37,020 nucleotides of DNA from Segetibacter aerophilus (GTDB lineage: Bacteria > Bacteroidota > Bacteroidia > Chitinophagales > Chitinophagaceae), in the NCBI RefSeq assembly GCF_007991655.1, contig NZ_BJYT01000035.1, forward strand, positions 1 to 37,020, in the 5' to 3' direction. The notes beneath the pieces were generated by a model. That model was not told the origin of the DNA, did no database searches, and saw only the letters and a program-made list of their open reading frames with translations. Shown one piece after another: positions 1 through 25,887 of the stretch. Within the stretch, counting starts at the first letter, position 1. The number at the start of each line of letters is the position of its first letter. A program made the position numbers and the translations under genes.

Positions 1-153
1 TCGCAGCTGTGTCATATTCACCATCAAAGAGCTGAGATAACAGTTTTACCAAACGAAAAGCTAGTTTTAAACACTTGTTGTATTCTTTTTAAAGAACAGC
101 TGAACCTACTGGCATTAAAAGATGGAAAGGAGATTTATTTGGAAGAATTATAA
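1..153 (+). CDS. C-terminal end of an unknown protein, cut by window edge
   Basis: Frame 1 is open from the first base to a TAA at 151-153 and gives 50 codons with ordinary, non-repetitive composition, ending in KEIYLEEL. The start lies outside the window. No family is recognised. It lies inside the putative integrated element and is read in the same direction as the sigma factor 160 bp downstream. An open frame of this length could arise by chance, so this is tentative. Confidence 0.4.
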   Translation, partial: SQLCHIHHQRAEITVLPNEKLVLNTCCILFKEQLNLLALKDGKEIYLEEL

Positions 154-313
154 AGACTTCTCTACCTCTTAATAGATTTGCTGTATTAGTGATCAGTCAA
201 TAATGCAAATTAAAAAGATTAAAGGCTCTATTAAAGGTTAGCCATTTTTTTATCTCTATATCTTCCCAATTTGAAATTTCATACGTGGCTGCGGTAGCTG
301 CTAAAATATTATT

Positions 314-850
314 ATGACAAAGGATAGAATAAGTGAGACACTGATGATCAGAAAGTGTATTAGCGCAGATAGAAGGAGTCAGAAAATGCTTTATGATAAG
401 TTTTTTTTTAAAATGCGCTATATATGCTTGCGATTTACAAAAAATGATGTTGACATCGAAGACATTTTACAGGATGGTTTTGCCAGGTTATTTACTAACC
501 TGCACAAATACAGAGGAGATGGATCTTTTGAAGGCTGGGTAAGAAGGATTTTTACAAATGTCTCCATTGAGCATGTCAAGCGCAAAAAGGTTCACATTGT
601 GGATTTTGAAGGATTGGAAAATTTATTGGTAGCAAAGCACTTCAATGTACTTGAAACACTGTATGCCAAGGATTTATTAAAGGCCTCTCATACCATAAGT
701 CCAGGATGTAAAACCGTTTTCAACTTATATGCAGTGGGTGGTTTAACACATCAGGAAATAGGCAGAAAATTGGGAATAACGGAGAGCACAAGTAAATCGC
801 AGTACACAAGGGCAAAGGTAAAACTGAGAGATATCATTCGCAGCAGATAG
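314..850 (+). CDS. ECF-type RNA polymerase sigma factor (sigma-70 family)
   Basis: A 178-aa protein with the usual Bacteroidota ECF layout. Region 2 spans about residues 22-95 and contains the DIEDILQDGF stretch followed by GSFEGWVRRIF, the core-binding and -10 melting part. Region 4 spans about residues 120-175, where LTHQEIGRKLGI and STSKSQYTRAKVKLR form the helix-turn-helix for the -35 element. The family redirects RNA polymerase to a small regulon, usually held by an anti-sigma factor. Here no anti-sigma factor or TonB receptor follows, so it is an orphan in this view. The ATG at 314 is the first in frame and no clear Shine-Dalgarno precedes it, as is common in Bacteroidota. It lies in the integrated element, so its targets may be element genes. 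The family call is firm; the regulon is unknown. Confidence 0.9.
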   Translation: MTKDRISETLMIRKCISADRRSQKMLYDKFFFKMRYICLRFTKNDVDIEDILQDGFARLFTNLHKYRGDGSFEGWVRRIFTNVSIEHVKRKKVHIVDFEGLENLLVAKHFNVLETLYAKDLLKASHTISPGCKTVFNLYAVGGLTHQEIGRKLGITESTSKSQYTRAKVKLRDIIRSR

Positions 851-1047
851 GGGTTAACGTTCTCTTTATTTGAAGTTTTTTATCTCTTTTTAACTCTCGA
901 ATTATCGAATAGAAAATGCTTTAAAGCGACTTGCTGGTGCAGAGGTGATGCTGAGAACTTAGAAATATTTGATAGTCTTGTAATAGCAGAAACCGCACTT
1001 TCACTGAATATCCATTTTATCACTGCTCTCCGGGACATAGTTAGAAC

Positions 1048-1441
1048 GTGCCCCTCCTTCAAAAAGTAGCTGATAATCGTTTATTACACCTACTGAATTG
1101 GCTAGGTACCTTAAAGAGATATATAATAATACTGTCGCCCAACACAGAACTCAAAAGCAAACTGCTTAAGGATATTACAAAGCAACTAGAGGCTAACTAT
1201 AGCAAGCAGGTTGAAAACTTAGACACAAACCTACAGAATCTGCAGAAGGCAAATGAGAGGGATGTAAATGTGCTGAACCAGCAGCTACTAGCTGCTAAAG
1301 AAGTGAAGCAGGGTTATACAAACCAGATACAGGATTTACAGAAGCAGATTGAAAGGGCAGGCAGGATAAGCACGGCTATTTTTTTTAATTATAGCAGCAT
1401 TGGTAATAGGATGGCTAGTGGGAAGACTTATAGGTCTCTAA
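1048..1441 (+). pseudogene. Coiled-coil protein with C-terminal membrane anchor, frameshifted
   Basis: The forward frame encodes a Gln/Lys/Leu-rich heptad-like coiled coil over about residues 33-108. It then meets a run of eight T at about 1382-1389 and continues in an unconvincing frame to 1470. If one T is added to that run, the frame instead reads a hydrophobic helix (FFLIIAALVIGWLVGRL) and stops at TAA 1439-1441, which looks like a genuine tail anchor. I therefore read the gene as ending at 1441, with a one-base homopolymer deletion or sequencing error. The N-terminus is uncertain: the only upstream start in frame is a GTG at 1048 and the first 30 residues look poor. It converges with the small gene on the minus strand, overlapping by about 14 bp. 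Function unknown. Confidence 0.5.
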
Positions 1442-1676
1442 CGCTGGTTATATCTATATCCTTTAAGTAAGGCTCAAGCTGACTAGTATCACAGAACGAA
1501 CGCACACTCTCAATCTCATTATCATCATAATAAACCTCCACATAGAAAGAGTAAAGCTGATAAAGAGCTACCCTTAAATTACCAACAGCTCTTTCACCCA
1601 CAAATGCTCCTTCTGACCATAAAAGTGATTTCCTTTCATCCTCAGACAGTTCATTATATTGATACAGTGTGATCAT
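1428..1676 (-). CDS. Small conserved-looking hypothetical protein (82 aa)
   Basis: An 82-aa acidic protein starting MITLYQYNELSEDERK and rich in Tyr, Asp and Glu, with a VEVYYDDNEIESV stretch typical of small mixed alpha/beta proteins. It has no membrane segment or signal peptide. The ATG at 1676 is the only sensible start. The composition looks like a real protein, and small proteins of this general style are common in Bacteroidota mobile elements, but I cannot name a family or function. It faces the coiled-coil gene tail to tail. A possible terminator for this strand is not evident within 100 bp. Confidence 0.6.
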   Translation of the reverse strand: MITLYQYNELSEDERKSLLWSEGAFVGERAVGNLRVALYQLYSFYVEVYYDDNEIESVRSFCDTSQLEPYLKDIDITSVRDL

Positions 1677-1782
1677 AGTACTATTCTAAAAATAGCATTT
1701 TATCTCTCCTCTGCCTAGATAATTCTCTTAAGGCTTACGATTATTGTCTCTGTTATGATTACACATTTGTTGACTAGAAAAT

Positions 1783-1812
1783 AAAAAACCGCTACTTTCG
1801 TAACGGTTTTGT
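1783..1812. terminator. Hairpin with flanking A/T runs, likely terminator
   Basis: AAAACCG at 1785-1791 pairs with CGGTTTT at 1804-1810, extended inward by three pairs after one mismatch, with loop TTTC. T-rich sequence follows on the plus strand and A-rich sequence lies on the other side. It sits 15 bp past the stop of the 40-aa minus-strand ORF (1827-1949) and could end its transcription. Confidence 0.55.
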
Positions 1813-1826
1813 TTACTCAGTCACTT

Positions 1827-1949
1827 TTAAAGCTTGTAGATCGCGCCAACGATATTTACAACATGCTCTAAAATGATTGTGAGACTTAAGATTAGGCTTA
1901 TCCACTCCGGAAGGCCTTTTTTGTGTCTAGGGGGCTTTTGTTTGTCCAT
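1827..1949 (-). CDS. Small membrane peptide (40 aa)
   Basis: The minus strand encodes a 40-residue peptide: a basic, Pro-rich head (MDKQKPPRHKKG) followed by a long hydrophobic stretch from about residue 15 to 36, ending IYKL. This gives one predicted membrane helix with a positive N-terminal side, a layout typical of genuine tiny membrane proteins. The reading frame is uninterrupted and a hairpin terminator lies just beyond the stop. No strong Shine-Dalgarno precedes the ATG at 1949. No family is recognised; roles such as toxin, holin-like protein or complex subunit are all possible and none is shown. Confidence 0.5.
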   Translation of the reverse strand: MDKQKPPRHKKGLPEWISLILSLTIILEHVVNIVGAIYKL

Positions 1950-2114
1950 AATTAACCGTTTGGTTTATCATAGAGGTCAAAGCTTTTAAGGCACTACGCA
2001 AAGCAAGCAAATAAATAGTTACCGTGCAAAGTTACTCTGCTAGATAGGTAGCAATGTGAATAAGATTGTGTACAGGCGTTACCTACTAGAAGTATTAAAG
2101 AGGAGGATGCAAAA

Positions 2115-2304
2115 TTGAGACTCATAGTGTATTTTGATACAGAGATAGTTTCCCATGGCCCGCAGAATATTTACAGCAGTATCGAAAATATTATTTTAAA
2201 TGAATATTCCTAATAACCATCATTTCGTACCCGAAGTCTATTTAAAACAATTTTCTAACTCTCAAAAGCTGCGTATAGTGGAAACATTCTTACAAAATTC
2301 ATGA
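2115..2304 (+). pseudogene. Truncated DUF4238-like gene with a small overlapping upstream frame
   Basis: An ATG at 2200 opens a 34-codon frame ending at TGA 2302-2304. Its peptide starts MNIPNNHHFVPEVYLKQFS, which matches the hallmark N-terminus of DUF4238 proteins (HxVPxxYLxxF). Family members are usually about 250-350 residues long, so only the head remains. Immediately before it, an AGGAGG at 2101-2106 precedes a 32-codon frame starting with TTG at 2115 and ending at 2213, overlapping the DUF4238 start; whether that is real is doubtful. The downstream sequence to about 2470 is AT-rich and shows no continuation in any frame. Interpreted as a decayed cargo gene of the integrated element. Confidence 0.5.
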
Positions 2305-2482
2305 ACCAAAGACAGATACGTTAAGTGGAAAGGTGTTGCGTTAACTCTTCCTGTTTTATATTTTGTTTCTAAGAATTGAAGGTACATTTTTGATTTTCGA
2401 ACGCTTAATAGGTTTTTTAGATTTTAGATTTTTACTTTAAGTACTTTCTAATGTTTATAATGATTATTTGAGTTAACGTATC

Positions 2483-2509
2483 AAAGGGCAGCTTAGGCTG
2501 TCCTTTTTT
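2483..2509 (+). terminator. Rho-independent terminator
   Basis: AAAGGGCAGC and GCTGTCCTTT form a ten-position stem with one G-T pair around a TTAG loop, directly followed by a run of T. It points in the plus direction and lies 180 bp past the DUF4238 fragment, so it may be the terminator of the original intact gene. It isolates the downstream 218-aa gene from upstream transcription. Confidence 0.7.
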
Positions 2510-2681
2510 AATATGTACAACAGTCCTCTACTAATTGAATTTCCCCCGATTCTTATATTGGAGCAACCTTCAGCTTCACAACTCATACTTTGTCATGATA
2601 GCAAAATTCACGCTATATAAAGTGCTTTTAGGTGAAGTAGTCATGAATTTGTTATCTTAAGACCCAACAACTCATCTCAAC

Positions 2682-3338
2682 ATGCAGCTCGTGGATTTAT
2701 ATGTACTTGTCAGAAAGGAAGCAGAATTAAAGTTTGATAGAGTTTTAAGACTCTGTAAATCTGAGATACAAAAGAAGTTCATAGGCTACTTCTACTACTT
2801 CTTTCTTAAGAATGATTTTGATCTTCACCTGCTGAGTATTGAGTGGAAAGAGTTTGAAAACACTGGTGACGCTTATAGACCGGTCTACTACCTAGAAAAC
2901 GATGACGGATTAGCTATAAGAGCTTCTAATGATGCAGTGCAGGTTATTAATCCATTTACAGGAGACTTTGAATTATTAATAGGATTTACAGTTAAAGTTG
3001 GCGATGTTGCTTATGAGATTATCCCTAACTACTATCTATTTAACAGGACCCATTCATGCAGCCTTGAAGTTGGTATTATTATGAAGGTGCCAAAGACTGG
3101 AAATGTTTTGGGTCGATTTGCAATAATATTCAATGAAAAAAACACTCCAGCCTCTCCAAAATTAACCCCCGAGGCAAACATCCTCTTAAATCAAAATGAT
3201 TTTGTTACTATTGAATTTTCTGCTAATGAAATCGACACAATTTCTGATAAAACTATCGTTGAGCTAGAGAACGCCATGTATAAGGTGATATTTGGAAAAG
3301 AAAGTGAGTATTACAGATTTAAGAGTGAGGAGGTATAG
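2682..3338 (+). CDS. Unknown 218-aa protein, partner candidate of the adjacent helicase
   Basis: A 218-aa soluble protein without signal peptide or membrane segment. The N-terminal 50 residues look alpha-helical (KEAELKFDRVLRLCKSEIQKK followed by an aromatic-rich FIGYFYYFFL patch). The middle (about 85-150) alternates hydrophobic and polar residues as in a beta-sheet core, and the tail is acidic and helical. The segment SEIQKKFIGYFYYFF faintly recalls the entry helix of some PD-(D/E)XK nuclease-like proteins, but I cannot locate a convincing D...ExK set, so I do not assign nuclease activity. It lies 144 bp upstream of the 818-aa helicase-like gene on the same strand, at the end of an integrated element, which suggests but does not prove joint function. 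Start ATG at 2682 is the first in frame after the terminator. Confidence 0.6.
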   Translation: MQLVDLYVLVRKEAELKFDRVLRLCKSEIQKKFIGYFYYFFLKNDFDLHLLSIEWKEFENTGDAYRPVYYLENDDGLAIRASNDAVQVINPFTGDFELLIGFTVKVGDVAYEIIPNYYLFNRTHSCSLEVGIIMKVPKTGNVLGRFAIIFNEKNTPASPKLTPEANILLNQNDFVTIEFSANEIDTISDKTIVELENAMYKVIFGKESEYYRFKSEEV

Positions 3339-3482
3339 AAAGAGTAATATTAAAGCGCTAGATATAAGTTGTATTTTTTAGTGTAAAAGTGTATACAGTA
3401 TAATCCTTACAATGCTTACATTCCAATACGAACCCCTATAAGAAGTTGGTTATGAAACAGAAGCGTTAGCACAAGCAAAAAA

Positions 3483-5939
3483 GTGTTTATTTTTAGTGTA
3501 AAGCACTTCATCCATAATCACTATCTTTTGGAAGAGATTAAATTCACAAAGCCTGCCTTCAAAGTCAGACAACAGAACATAGACTACTTTGAGTTGAAGG
3601 AGGAATATTTCCCTAAGAATGACTTTGTATTTTCAAGAGAGATGCTTTCGTTAGGAAAGATTGAAGAATACATTGAGCAGGTAAAGCACTTAGGAACTCT
3701 TGATTTACAGAAGGAAGAAACTGTAGTATTTAACTTCCAAGTGGGCAAAGGGAAAACTACCTTGAACTACAAGTTGATTAAGGACTATTATGACTCAGGT
3801 TACTACGTAATCGTATGCAGTCCTTTCATAAAGTTGGTTTTTAAAGACGACAAGTGGGTAACTGATAGTTTTCCGTTGGTAGAAATAGAATTACCTGAAC
3901 ACATTAAAAAAGTTACTAAGTCAGGAAAGCTCTTTCTCCATTCTGGTTTAAATAAAGTATTTCGAGCTACGTTTTCAGGAAGCACCTCCCTTGAGGAAAA
4001 AAAGGAAACTGCTAAGACAATACCTTATAAGGTTCGGGTTCACATTATGACCATTAATACTCTCTTAGCTAATTCAGGGGATGACGCAGGGGAGCAAAGT
4101 TTCGTGAAAAAATTATATTTAAGCCATCTTCTTAAAGCAACAGAACACAAAAAGGTAGTTTTATTCCTTGATGAAATTCATGAGGGGGTAAAAAACTTTA
4201 GGTCGCTACTAATACCAAACTTGCTGAGATGGAAAGGCAGCATAAAGAAGGTATTTATATCAAGTGCAACCTTTACACCAGCAACAATACCAGTAATCAA
4301 GGCAGCGTCATTGTTAACGAAGAAAGAAATTAAAGTATATGAATTAGCAAGAACAAAGAATGATATACAAGCTAAAATTCACTTACACGTCTTTAATAGC
4401 GCCTATAACTCTACGAGCAAAAAGCTTATGAATGCAGTAGACAGCATAATACAAAATTATAAATCAAAGGACCTTCCTCTTAGCATTATAACAGGAACCA
4501 AAGGATTAGCAAAAAATATTGCAGTAAACAGTTATGGCAAAAATGTGATAGACAAGCCTCACAAAACTGATCCATCTTTGTCATTAGAAGCTATAAATCT
4601 CTGCACTACAGATACTCAAGTCTTATACCAGCAAGATCAAAATAACATTGGAACCACCTTCAAAACTGGTATTAATATAGATAAGGCCGATCATGTCTTG
4701 TTTATTATCATACCTGCTATAAAAAAAGAAATCAAGTACAGACATTATGGTACCTTTTCTGATGGAATACCTTCAATCGTGCAAGCGTTTGGTAGATTAA
4801 GAAATGGAGGAGATATACATGTATTTATTCACGAGCCTGTAGAGTTGCTTGGTAACTCAAGGAGCTATCCAAAATTATTTCATAGCAAAGATTTTATTGA
4901 ACATAGAAAAGTAAATAGTCACTATGATGCAGTTATTAAAAAGTACACAGGAAAAGTAAGTGAAATTGCTGCTTTCGTTGCGGACATGGAAACAGATATA
5001 AAGAAACCTCCGTCAACTGCAATATTAAAAGACAAAGAAGAATTTGGCTTCTGGTATCATAATCAACATGAATATTTACTACTCCATAGTAAGGCTGTCG
5101 CACTAAATCATAAAAATCCATCTTTTGGTAGCTTCCTTTCACCTTACATACTGTGGGCTTGTTTACATGACCAATTTGCTAATGCAACTCTAAACACTAT
5201 TACTTACTATGACTATAGAAAGACGGTTATCATTAATGCAGCCAATGCAACAAAGACGTTCTTTCAGATAATAAGTAAATGGCAATCTGAAATCAAAACG
5301 CAGGGTTTTAGAGCCTCCTTAGAAGAATTGACACAATACATTGGCCAGGAAAAGAATGTGTCAGGAGAAATTGAAACTATAACGTATGAAGTAGGAGTTA
5401 AGAAGTGGAGTGCTGCAAGTTTAATTAACAAAGAACCTAATTTAACTAAGGCAGCAATTGAGGCTCTGTATGAGGTATATTCAGGAAAACACTACTCGTT
5501 AAAAGATAAGGCACATTATTTAAATAGTGGCATCTCAGCAAGTACAATGGAGGATGATACAGATTTATTGAAAGCATACAAGGAGTTAGGAGAACTTCAA
5601 CTTGATTTTGAAATATGGTTCATAAGTGAAATGATACCACATAAGGGAGGATTTTATGTAAGGCATGATTTGCAGCAGGATTTAGAGGATGACTTAGTAG
5701 CAAAAATCACAACTGCTGTAGATGATTTAAAGACGCTTGATTACGTGTTACAAAACAAGGGAATAAGCTTCCTACAGCATTTAGGCAAAGACAGCAAAAG
5801 TGATAAAAAGTCCATCTACAACGAGTTTCGAGACTTGTCCTTCAAGGTGTCATCCAAGCCAACACAAATACAGGGTAAAAAGCATTTTAAGGTGGAACTA
5901 ATCACAGTGCACACTCCAGAGATCCTGTTGTTTCAGTAA
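3483..5939 (+). CDS. SF2 (DEAD/DEAH-type) helicase-like ATPase, 818 aa
   Basis: A large protein with the superfamily 2 helicase motifs in order: Walker A GKGKTT at about residues 88-93, Walker B DEIH at 230-233, SAT at 261-263, motif V-like TTFKTGIN at 391-397, and motif VI QAFGRLR at 435-441 (Gln at 434-435). Such enzymes couple ATP hydrolysis to movement on, or remodelling of, DNA or RNA. After the RecA-like core there are about 370 residues with no domain I recognise; no nuclease, methylase or zinc-finger motif is seen. The start is a GTG at 3483 without a good ribosome binding site, and a short in-frame-looking piece upstream (ATG at 3412, interrupted by a stop) leaves open that the N-terminus is longer or damaged. 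It is the last gene before the attR-like tRNA fragment. A role in defence or element maintenance is inference; the ATPase/helicase class is well supported. Confidence 0.75.
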   Translation: MFIFSVKHFIHNHYLLEEIKFTKPAFKVRQQNIDYFELKEEYFPKNDFVFSREMLSLGKIEEYIEQVKHLGTLDLQKEETVVFNFQVGKGKTTLNYKLIKDYYDSGYYVIVCSPFIKLVFKDDKWVTDSFPLVEIELPEHIKKVTKSGKLFLHSGLNKVFRATFSGSTSLEEKKETAKTIPYKVRVHIMTINTLLANSGDDAGEQSFVKKLYLSHLLKATEHKKVVLFLDEIHEGVKNFRSLLIPNLLRWKGSIKKVFISSATFTPATIPVIKAASLLTKKEIKVYELARTKNDIQAKIHLHVFNSAYNSTSKKLMNAVDSIIQNYKSKDLPLSIITGTKGLAKNIAVNSYGKNVIDKPHKTDPSLSLEAINLCTTDTQVLYQQDQNNIGTTFKTGINIDKADHVLFIIIPAIKKEIKYRHYGTFSDGIPSIVQAFGRLRNGGDIHVFIHEPVELLGNSRSYPKLFHSKDFIEHRKVNSHYDAVIKKYTGKVSEIAAFVADMETDIKKPPSTAILKDKEEFGFWYHNQHEYLLLHSKAVALNHKNPSFGSFLSPYILWACLHDQFANATLNTITYYDYRKTVIINAANATKTFFQIISKWQSEIKTQGFRASLEELTQYIGQEKNVSGEIETITYEVGVKKWSAASLINKEPNLTKAAIEALYEVYSGKHYSLKDKAHYLNSGISASTMEDDTDLLKAYKELGELQLDFEIWFISEMIPHKGGFYVRHDLQQDLEDDLVAKITTAVDDLKTLDYVLQNKGISFLQHLGKDSKSDKKSIYNEFRDLSFKVSSKPTQIQGKKHFKVELITVHTPEILLFQ

Positions 5940-6051
5940 AATCTATGGAAATACTAGCTTTGATAAAATAAAAAAACACCAATTTAAACACCCAAAAGTG
6001 TATAAGCGAAAGAATAAGTAAAAAAAGGTGTACAATGAGCTGATTTTCAAG

Positions 6052-6097
6052 CTGCTTTGGGAGCAGGAGGTCGCAAGTTCGAATCTTGCCGCCCCGA
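6052..6097 (+). tRNA. 3' half of tRNA-Pro(UGG), attR-like integration scar
   Basis: The sequence reads as the second half of a bacterial tRNA-Pro. The anticodon loop TTTGGGA (6056-6062) carries anticodon UGG and its 3' stem is GCAGG (6063-6067). A T arm follows with stem GCAAG (6073-6077), loop TTCGAAT (6078-6084) and stem CTTGC (6085-6089), then acceptor strand CGCCCCG (6090-6096) and discriminator A (6097); CCA is not encoded. The match begins within the anticodon stem: base 6051 is G where C would be needed to pair with G6067, and nothing upstream looks like a D arm or 5' acceptor strand. The gene is therefore only a half, as left by integration of a mobile element into tRNA-Pro with the crossover near the anticodon stem-loop. 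Confidence 0.85.
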
Positions 6098-6103
6098 CTT
6101 ATC

Positions 6104-6139
6104 AAGGGCTTAGAACTTATAGTTCTGGGCCCTTTTTTT
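6104..6139 (+). terminator. Rho-independent terminator of the tRNA-Pro locus
   Basis: AAGGGC...AGAAC at 6104-6116 pairs with GTTCT...GCCCTT at 6122-6134 around a short TATA-like loop, followed by a run of seven T. It lies 7 bp after the tRNA 3' end and in the same direction, so it is the native terminator of the tRNA gene that the element interrupted. Confidence 0.8.
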
Positions 6140-6400
6140 ATTTGCACATACTTTGCACTAAGAACAGGCATTTGATACTATATTTTTCAATAATGACTCA
6201 AATAGCTCTACTACCATTTGTGCTTTTGCCTCTCTTTAGTCAGCTACTTAATACTGCCAACCGGGCCTCTTATAACTAATTAATTATGCTATTACAAAAT
6301 ATTAGGTTATAGGTTTCCGAGGTTCGCACGACTAAAGTTTGTTTTCATTTTTAAGTATGCAGAAGTTTCTGCTTTATCCTTTGAAGCTTCAAATCCTCAA

Positions 6401-7503
6401 CTAATTATCTTTAGATATTTCAATATAAAAAGTAGTACCAATACCTTCTGTACTTTCAAACCAAATCTGCCCGTTATGCCATTCAACAATTGTTTTAATA
6501 ATTGACATTCCCAAACCAACGCTGGGTTCTCCGTGAATGCCTTGCCTTCCTGCTTTGGTAAATTTATCAAACAAAAAAGGCTGTAAATGGGCAGGTATAC
6601 CTATGCCGGTATCCTGTACTTTTATCAAAATATTGTCGTTTTTGTCTTCAACGCTAATCCGGATATTACCAGAATCAGGAGTAAACTTTAAGGCATTTGA
6701 TAACAGGTTAGTAATGACCTGCATAAACTTATTGTCATCAATAGTAACAAATAATGTTTCTGAACACGTTACAAATTCAAACAGTTGCGGTGGTTTAGAT
6801 ATCGGTGACTTCTGCAACTATCAATAACATTATTTATTCTTTCCACAAGATCTACTCGTTGCTTTACCAGGCTCGCTTCGCTTGAATTTAAAAACTCATC
6901 ATTAATGAGATCACGTATCATGGTGACACCCTTTTTGCAGTTTCTCTTAATCGTATCAACCAGTTCCATTACTGACTCATCGCTACTGATCTTAGTTTCT
7001 TCTGAAAGCATTAATGATGACATTTCGATGTTTCCTAACGGACCCAACAGATCGTGCGAAAGTATATGTAGAATAGAATTTTTCTTATCTGAAAACTTAT
7101 GAAGGGTATCGTTGTAATCTTTATCTGCGGTAATATCCTCAGCGACGCCCACAATAATTTCTTTATTGCTTTTTTCAGAAGCGTACGCCTTCAGTCGTAT
7201 CCATTTTTGCTGTTGTTCGGGGGGGAGTAGTATACGAAACTCAAGTTTTTGATTTTGCCTGTCACTTTTAATCTTAGTAAAAGAATCTTTAACAAGCTCC
7301 CTGTCGTCAGGATGGATGGTATCAAAAAGCAGCGATAGGTTACAACCGATAAATTCGCGCGAGACATTCCAAACTTTCTCAAAAGCTGCATTTAAATAGA
7401 GCACTTTGTCTATTTGCAAATGAAACGCAAAGAGAACCTCGTCAGTGAGTTCGGGAAGTTCATGCAAGGGAAAACCTGAAGGAAAGGGTATTGTATTATC
7501 CAT
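6401..7503 (-). pseudogene. PAS-domain sensor histidine kinase, frameshifted
   Basis: Two overlapping minus-strand frames together make one cytoplasmic-type histidine kinase. The first frame, from ATG 7503, has a PAS fold (about residues 20-125, ending in EDITADK), then the dimerisation/phospho-acceptor helix with LSHDLLGPLGN (His about 150). The second frame, from about 6818, has the ATPase domain: N box NKFMQVITNLLSNALKF, G1 DTGIGIP and G2 GLGMSI. The break is near 6818-6826, where adding one base would join VIDS to LQKSPIS. All catalytic motifs survive on either side. The second frame has a TTG that could start a free ATPase domain, but this is unlikely to be functional. No response regulator is adjacent. 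Real mutation or sequence error cannot be separated here. I preferred ATG 7503 over the in-frame 7536 start because of the PAS length. Confidence 0.85.
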
Positions 7504-7741
7504 AAAAGCGACTTTTTTTAAGCTGATTCCAGTCAACTTTTATTTGCACAATTAGCAAGTATAACAGAAGAGGAGTGATTAAAGGTAAACCATTAATCTG
7601 GTAATGATACAATTAATCTTAATATGAAAAATCTTATAGCCTTGGTATACAAGATAACAATCAATAGTAGATGCGACAGAGCCGTAGGTGCAGGTGGTGC
7701 AATAATTGTAAATAATATCTAATATAATCAAATCATAAGCA

Positions 7742-25733: not shown

Positions 25734-25783
25734 AAGTAAGTGATTTTAAGCCTGTAGGAAAAAAGCTGCGTAAAAGAATAAAA

Positions 25784-25803
25784 GTACCAGTGAGTGACAC
25801 AAC
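25784..25803 (-). repeat. Dispersed 20-bp intergenic repeat, copy 2
   Basis: Reverse-strand GTTGTGTCACTCACTGGTAC, sitting in the 154-bp gap between the FAH-family gene and the second SDR. Shares GTTGTGTCACTCACT exactly with the copy at 30186. Confidence 0.55.
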
Positions 25804-25887
25804 GATGTCGCACGAAGCTATAAAGGCCACTACAAAATTTACTATAGCTAACGATTTTACTTTCATAAATGCCATAAACCATTTCAA

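Follow-up and report, generated by a model that had tools for sequence, protein, structure and literature searches.

A 3' fragment of a tRNA-Pro gene marks the right end of an integrated element in Segetibacter aerophilus

The stretch of DNA analyzed here (the window) is the complete contig C35 of the Segetibacter aerophilus genome, 37,020 bp in length. Positions 6052–6098 on the plus strand are identical over 47 bp to positions 30–76 of the 76-nt tRNA-Pro(TGG) gene that ARAGORN calls at C12:177199–177274 in the same genome, and they comprise the loop TTTGGGA preceded by four of the five bases of the 5' anticodon-stem strand, then the complete T arm and the 3' acceptor strand with one further base. 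From base composition alone, the expected number of occurrences of this 47-mer in the genome is about 2e-23. ARAGORN calls no tRNA gene in the window, and alignment of the DNA upstream of 6052 with the 5' half of the tRNA, inspected by eye, is at chance level. An earlier note on this DNA had described a 3' half of tRNA-Pro(UGG) that lacks its 5' half, which is what we find; it placed the half gene at 6052–6097, of which the start stands but the end does not, as the repeat reaches 6098 and measures 47 rather than 46 bp. The proper terminator reported behind the half gene is borne out by a hairpin at 6104–6134 followed by T's (MFE –20.5 kcal/mol, z score –5.65), matched by none of 200 shuffled sequences, and 6104–6140 (plus strand) is accordingly annotated as a predicted Rho-independent terminator. 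Beside the half tRNA, on the minus strand at 6401–7536, there are two overlapping ORFs in different frames, a PAS/HisKA part (6769–7536) and a HATPase part (6401–6817), which together look like one histidine kinase.

Positions 1–6051 of the window have a G+C content of 35.2%, compared with 40.7% for positions 6099–37020, and in the interpretation developed below they form the right-hand part of an integrated element, inside which the contig starts and which is bounded by the half gene as attR. On its plus strand this segment encodes a 178-aa sigma-70 family factor (314–850; Pfam, PHROGs), a 140-aa coiled-coil-like protein with only sub-threshold matches in Pfam, PHROGs and PADLOC (1048–1470), a 218-aa protein without a match in any of these three collections (2682–3338), and an 818-aa helicase-like protein (3483–5939; Pfam ResIII, E = 6.2e-5), for which a search of 298 other genomes of the order found one relative, in G024.

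When the sequence 6052–6098 is searched against its own genome it is found in three places, namely the window itself, C12:177228–177277, and part of a tRNA-Pro(GGG) gene on contig C9. The C12 match extends over 50 bases at 98% identity, the first 47 being identical, and is part of the intact tRNA-Pro(UGG) gene, which is located just 3' of a tRNA-Ser(GCU) gene. Upstream of this tRNA pair, a 480-aa ORF (L004:6635–8077) reads by eye like DnaA. Downstream, 143 bp behind the tRNA-Pro gene, begins a gene (L004:8719) for a tyrosine integrase of 415 aa, in which Pfam recognizes an arm-binding domain (Arm-DNA-bind_5, 2.6e-10), a SAM-like domain (SAM_5, 5.7e-17) and a catalytic domain (Phage_integrase, 1.3e-15). 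The earlier note proposed to look for a second copy with a tyrosine recombinase up to about 150 kb upstream of the window; as the window is a complete contig, the search was directed at the remaining contigs, and such a copy is present on C12. As in islands that target tRNA genes, the gene is whole at one end (C12) and a 3' fragment at the other (C35), and a tyrosine integrase gene adjoins the tRNA.

Seven relatives were compared by BLAST in search of an empty site, and this was complemented by an alignment of the joined flanks with four relatives. In G006 and G007, both of the same genus, the match to the window runs unbroken at about 84% from 6052 to 6148 and to 6161, respectively, and upstream the two genomes share 80–91% identity with the dnaA-like gene and the tRNA-Ser gene of C12. 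Consequently, the intact tRNA-Pro gene in these relatives runs into the counterpart of window position 6099 and onward, which is the outcome that had been anticipated for a relative without the element. An empty site is therefore found in two of the seven relatives, and in the remaining five the window match ends within three bases behind the tRNA. The chromosomal match behind the tRNA gene is just 50–63 bp long and the gene order beyond it differs in G007. We annotate 6099–6161 (plus strand; the match ends at 6148 in G006) as chromosomal flank that lies directly 3' of intact tRNA-Pro in G006 and G007, and comparison with these relatives suggests that the terminator within it is the original chromosomal terminator of tRNA-Pro.

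The half gene could in principle be a decayed tandem duplicate of tRNA-Pro, formed without any element, and degenerate tRNA-Pro-like copies do occur behind tRNA-Pro in two genomes of the same genus, G002 and G003. However, the copies in G002 and G003 retain the D-arm strand and lie a short distance 3' of an intact gene, whereas the window copy has no intact gene near it and shows no mismatch anywhere from the anticodon stem onward. Moreover, the DNA downstream of the half gene corresponds to what flanks the intact tRNA-Pro gene in G006 and G007. We consider a tandem duplicate scarcely credible. The degenerate copies themselves (L038:2240–2980 in G003, where four were counted by eye, and L045 in G002) fall below the threshold of the Rfam tRNA model; some of them are followed by terminator-like hairpins, and in G003 a gene for an 80-aa GIY-YIG nuclease (2544–2786; Pfam E = 1e-16) is situated between copies. 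No paper describing such copies was found in the open-licence literature.

The motif AACACCC occurs four times, counting both strands, in the 17.47 kb of presumed element DNA (11,420 bp from C12, 6,051 bp from C35); three copies fall within 144 bp of the left end and one within 120 bp of the right end. On the window side it is seen by motif count in AAACACCC at 5986–5993 (plus strand), a candidate arm site of the integrase, the same motif being present three times beside attL on C12; AACACC at 5975–5980 (plus strand), read from the sequence and counted, is a weaker candidate. In addition, ATTTAAACACCCA is read at both element ends, and TTTAAACACCC is found once in each of the two sequences, on the C12 side and on the C35 side. 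AACACCC was picked after the ends had been viewed and its rarity is indicative only; it has no end enrichment in G006, and in G215 and G115 a concentration at the ends is seen only for a shorter form. The G+C content on C12 is 36.9% on the element side versus 39.0%, although part of the C12 stretch has a near-host G+C content (38–41% around C12:180700–184700) and holds response regulators, which counts against the reading developed here.

The partner gene with its integrase on C12, the empty site in relatives, and the presence of AACACCC at both ends place the right end of an integrated element at 6098; the earlier note, which took the half gene to mark such an end, was right in this respect. 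We are confident in a reading in which 6052–6098 is the attR of an element that a Bacteroidota-type tyrosine integrase inserted into the chromosomal tRNA-Pro(UGG) gene, and in which C12:177199–177274 is the corresponding attL. Within this reading we infer that the ends on C12 and C35 belong to a single element and that the integrase is active. The element would extend from behind the C12 tRNA-Pro gene past the contig end (188694) to window position 6051, and its length would be at least 17.5 kb if the two contigs adjoin; the C12 end and the C35 start do not overlap, the contigs are unjoined in the assembly, and the middle may be missing. Because C12 and C35 are unjoined, the integrase end and the right end might instead belong to two elements stacked in the same tRNA gene, or to a decayed composite, and tandem integration is known for such elements, as in SGI1. 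Yet the assembly contains one half copy only and the same motif is read at both ends, which makes stacking quite improbable compared with a single element. Defining this element fixes a boundary that routine annotation would miss, since its ends are split between two contigs and a fragment of this length escapes a tRNA finder.

With one element integrated, the attL tRNA-Pro gene would consist of the 5' part of the original gene together with last bases and a terminator brought by the element, so that the tRNA would stay whole. After integration the intact C12 gene ends in an element-side hairpin (MFE –18.5, z score –5.0), and the hairpin taken to be the original one is located behind the half gene. 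Inspection by eye revealed a hairpin with a T run in five of six attL flanks, the exception being G242. We considered that the attL terminator might be a common repeat and rejected this, as the pattern occurs once in the genome. In G001 (L044:7640–7690), the hairpin behind tRNA-Pro resembles the element-side attL hairpin of the present genome, the tRNA-Pro gene differs by one base in its last part, and no integrase is evident by eye among ORFs of at least 100 aa at that locus. As a guess, the attL hairpin might have been carried off from a relative's chromosome.

On the C12 side, the cargo includes a homing-type HNH endonuclease, a 493-aa protein, three response regulators and RadC; PADLOC assigns a homing-endonuclease model to the HNH protein and yields a few weak matches besides. 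Pfam detects no relaxase or conjugation families in 15 element ORFs (10 of the 16 with at least 70 aa on the C12 side and 5 of the 8 with at least 60 aa on C35 ahead of the att site), and PHROGs detects no capsid, portal, terminase or tail proteins among 8 element proteins, which match only integrase, HNH, sigma factor and unknown families. The 493-aa protein (L004:10577–12058, minus strand) has no Pfam match and no PDB sequence match. It has relatives in the elements of G046 and G215, with which it shares D267 in VDIKNSQP, R366, K370 and H448-D449-S450. The best 50 of 649 structure matches to its model (E up to 10) are all A-family-type DNA polymerases, with a best E of only 3.4e-3 and a pLDDT of 53.8, and the protein may bear a weak resemblance to this family. 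The TV-Pol family is defined by an A-family palm with two acidic catalytic residues (PMC2579912, PMC10061031), and the conserved residues and weak fold matches of the 493-aa protein may point to the TV-Pol and A-family polymerase primases of mobile elements described there.

Integrases that are 54, 46 and 43% identical to the C12 integrase are found in G046, G215 and G115, respectively, behind the same tRNA-Ser/tRNA-Pro pair. The G215 element is complete on one contig, extending about 17.5 kb from tRNA-Pro to a 52-bp repeat; judged by eye from translations, it seems to carry a type I restriction-modification set (L088:7738–13743). In six aligned integrases, H359, R362, H386 and Y395 are invariant, and S or A rather than arginine follows 'TGL', a region that we take to be box I of the integrase. 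In a tree of 102 integrases, all 10 that lie beside tRNA-Pro (UGG 6, GGG 3, CGG 1) are on one side of a single branch with no other row (support 94), and in a tree of 152 rows the 15 labelled tRNA-Pro form, together with G514, one group of 16 that contains no row with another target (support 94). The G514 integrase (L194) is labelled 'none' in the larger tree because its ORF starts ahead of the tRNA, but it is in fact located beside tRNA-Pro(ggg). The support of 94 is below the threshold of 95 for starring, and the trees are of a quick kind, with a root chosen for drawing only and some long branches. Six rows were left out of the smaller tree (L079, short; L159, long; and four duplicates) and twelve out of the larger one (the same six and six more duplicates). 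The other rows have tRNA-Ser, tmRNA, tRNA-Asp, Arg, Glu, Lys, Val or His as neighbors, or no tRNA was found. Among 80 named loci, a tRNA or tmRNA is present within 500 bp upstream of the integrase in 55 and absent in 25, and no far repeats were detected in the DNA examined at those 55 loci. Viral contigs searched with the integrase gave no match, and we found no paper on a tRNA-Pro integrase group in the open-licence literature.

The mechanism is an ordinary one, namely insertion of an element in a tRNA gene, which the earlier note read correctly while over-reading the crossover. According to PMC5704250, Tn6031 of Sphingobacterium sp. integrates in the 3' end of a tRNA-Pro gene. As described, it resembles the C12/C35 element in its Bacteroidota host, tyrosine integrase, tRNA-Pro target and use of the gene 3' end; Tn6031 is classed as integrative mobilizable, whereas our scan of element ORFs detected no relaxase. 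NBU1 of Bacteroides inserts in the 3' end of tRNA-Leu (PMC5704250, PMC8138268) and likewise has an arm-binding tyrosine integrase of Bacteroidota that uses a tRNA 3' end. It differs in the tRNA, in its MobP relaxase, and in an integrase that keeps the first catalytic arginine, where the six aligned here have S or A. Integrases of the IntCTnDOT subgroup, as PMC8138268 describes them, have an arm-binding domain, often lack the first catalytic arginine, and keep His-x-x-Arg, His and Tyr; compared with this description, the C12 integrase, with Arm-DNA-bind_5, the four invariant residues H359/R362/H386/Y395 and no arginine after 'TGL', may be a member. The Riemerella anatipestifer 10K genomic island, beside Arg-tRNA, is about 10 kb long, and both its integration and excision were shown by its authors (PMC6764341). 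It shares with the present element a Bacteroidota host, a tyrosine integrase adjoining a tRNA, and repeats (53 bp), but the tRNA is another one and the 53-bp repeat is described as next to it.

The two repeats of the C12/C35 element are identical, and the position of the crossover is consequently undecidable from this element alone. We therefore turn to the far repeats of related elements, which were sought for 17 elements beside tRNA-Pro and found in 7. Counted from the 3' end of the tRNA gene, the repeats start at the 64th base in G514 (67 bp), at the 47th base in the C12/C35 element (47 bp) and in G215 (52 bp), at the 30th in G115 (34 bp), at the 17th in G046 (18 bp), and at the 16th in G006 (18 bp) and in a second, tRNA-Pro(GGG) element of the present genome (16 bp). 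Only the last 16 bases, approximately the 3' T-stem strand and the 3' acceptor strand, are common to all seven. No far repeat was found in G262 (about 119 kb examined), G242 (about 60 kb, to the contig end) or G774 (about 59 kb), nor in G349, G003, G355, G553, L130, L156 and L094, where the sequence ends within about 12 kb; the search misses repeats shorter than about 15 bp or spanning the borders of the examined stretches. G553 and L094 are probably one record, as their integrases are identical and their contigs equally long, and the L156 tRNA contains a masked run of N. In the far copy of G046, positions 30–58 look like a worn copy of the tRNA with 16 of 29 bases matching (a level reached at 4 of 19,971 control places), beside a perfect match of positions 59–76. 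A search of the whole G046 genome with its own tRNA returned the gene itself and a single further match, 36 bp long at 86% identity, on a different contig.

The earlier note preferred the anticodon stem-loop to the T arm as the site of the crossover, a claim that the spread of repeat starts from the 64th to the 16th base does not uphold. A repeat that starts at the anticodon does not imply a crossover there, because its leftward extent beyond the point of exchange depends only on how far attP and the tRNA are alike. For the same element, a crossover in the anticodon stem-loop would be in keeping with two of the seven repeats, here and in G215, which begin at the same place, the second pair of the anticodon stem, and many integrases have their classical core in the anticodon loop and the stem that flanks it (PMC8371274). 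Such a crossover should, however, leave the whole 3' half of the host gene at the far end, whereas four of the seven repeats (G115, G046, G006 and the tRNA-Pro(GGG) element) begin behind the anticodon arm, and we regard it as unlikely. The repeats suggest instead that, if the clade shares its site, exchange occurs at the 3' end of the tRNA gene, the position reported for NBU1 and Tn6031, which fits better than the anticodon although it is unproved for the C12/C35 element; we infer that strands are exchanged somewhere in the final 16 bases. Where a tRNA repeat starts should thus not be equated with the place of crossover.

A more general possibility, which we offer tentatively and with some doubt, is that one Bacteroidota integrase lineage is dedicated to tRNA-Pro (UGG, GGG and CGG), recognizes nothing but the 16 terminal bases that these genes share, and supplies a new terminator in place of the old one. 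The attP would have been repeatedly re-copied from the host tRNA, the repeat drifting between 16 and 67 bp with the crossover fixed. If this is true, the 5' limit of the repeat is not a safe guide to the crossover in the tRNA-Pro integrase family. Integrases that target tRNA-Pro only could serve as predictable insertion tools in Bacteroidota.

The second element of this genome, with an integrase of the same clade, lies at the tRNA-Pro(GGG) gene at C9:1640–1714 on the minus strand (L003/L257). Its integrase (C9:145–1353) is 41% identical to the C12 integrase, and its 16-bp far repeat is on a different contig, at C18:36140–36155 (L258). A 15-mer of the C18 repeat is expected 0.004 times in the genome by chance and is found twice, in the tRNA and on C18. 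Elsewhere in the window, a short repeat at about 25781–25809 is common to other genomes of the genus, and its 19-base core occurs exactly at four distinct places in the compared loci (L016 and L044 overlap).
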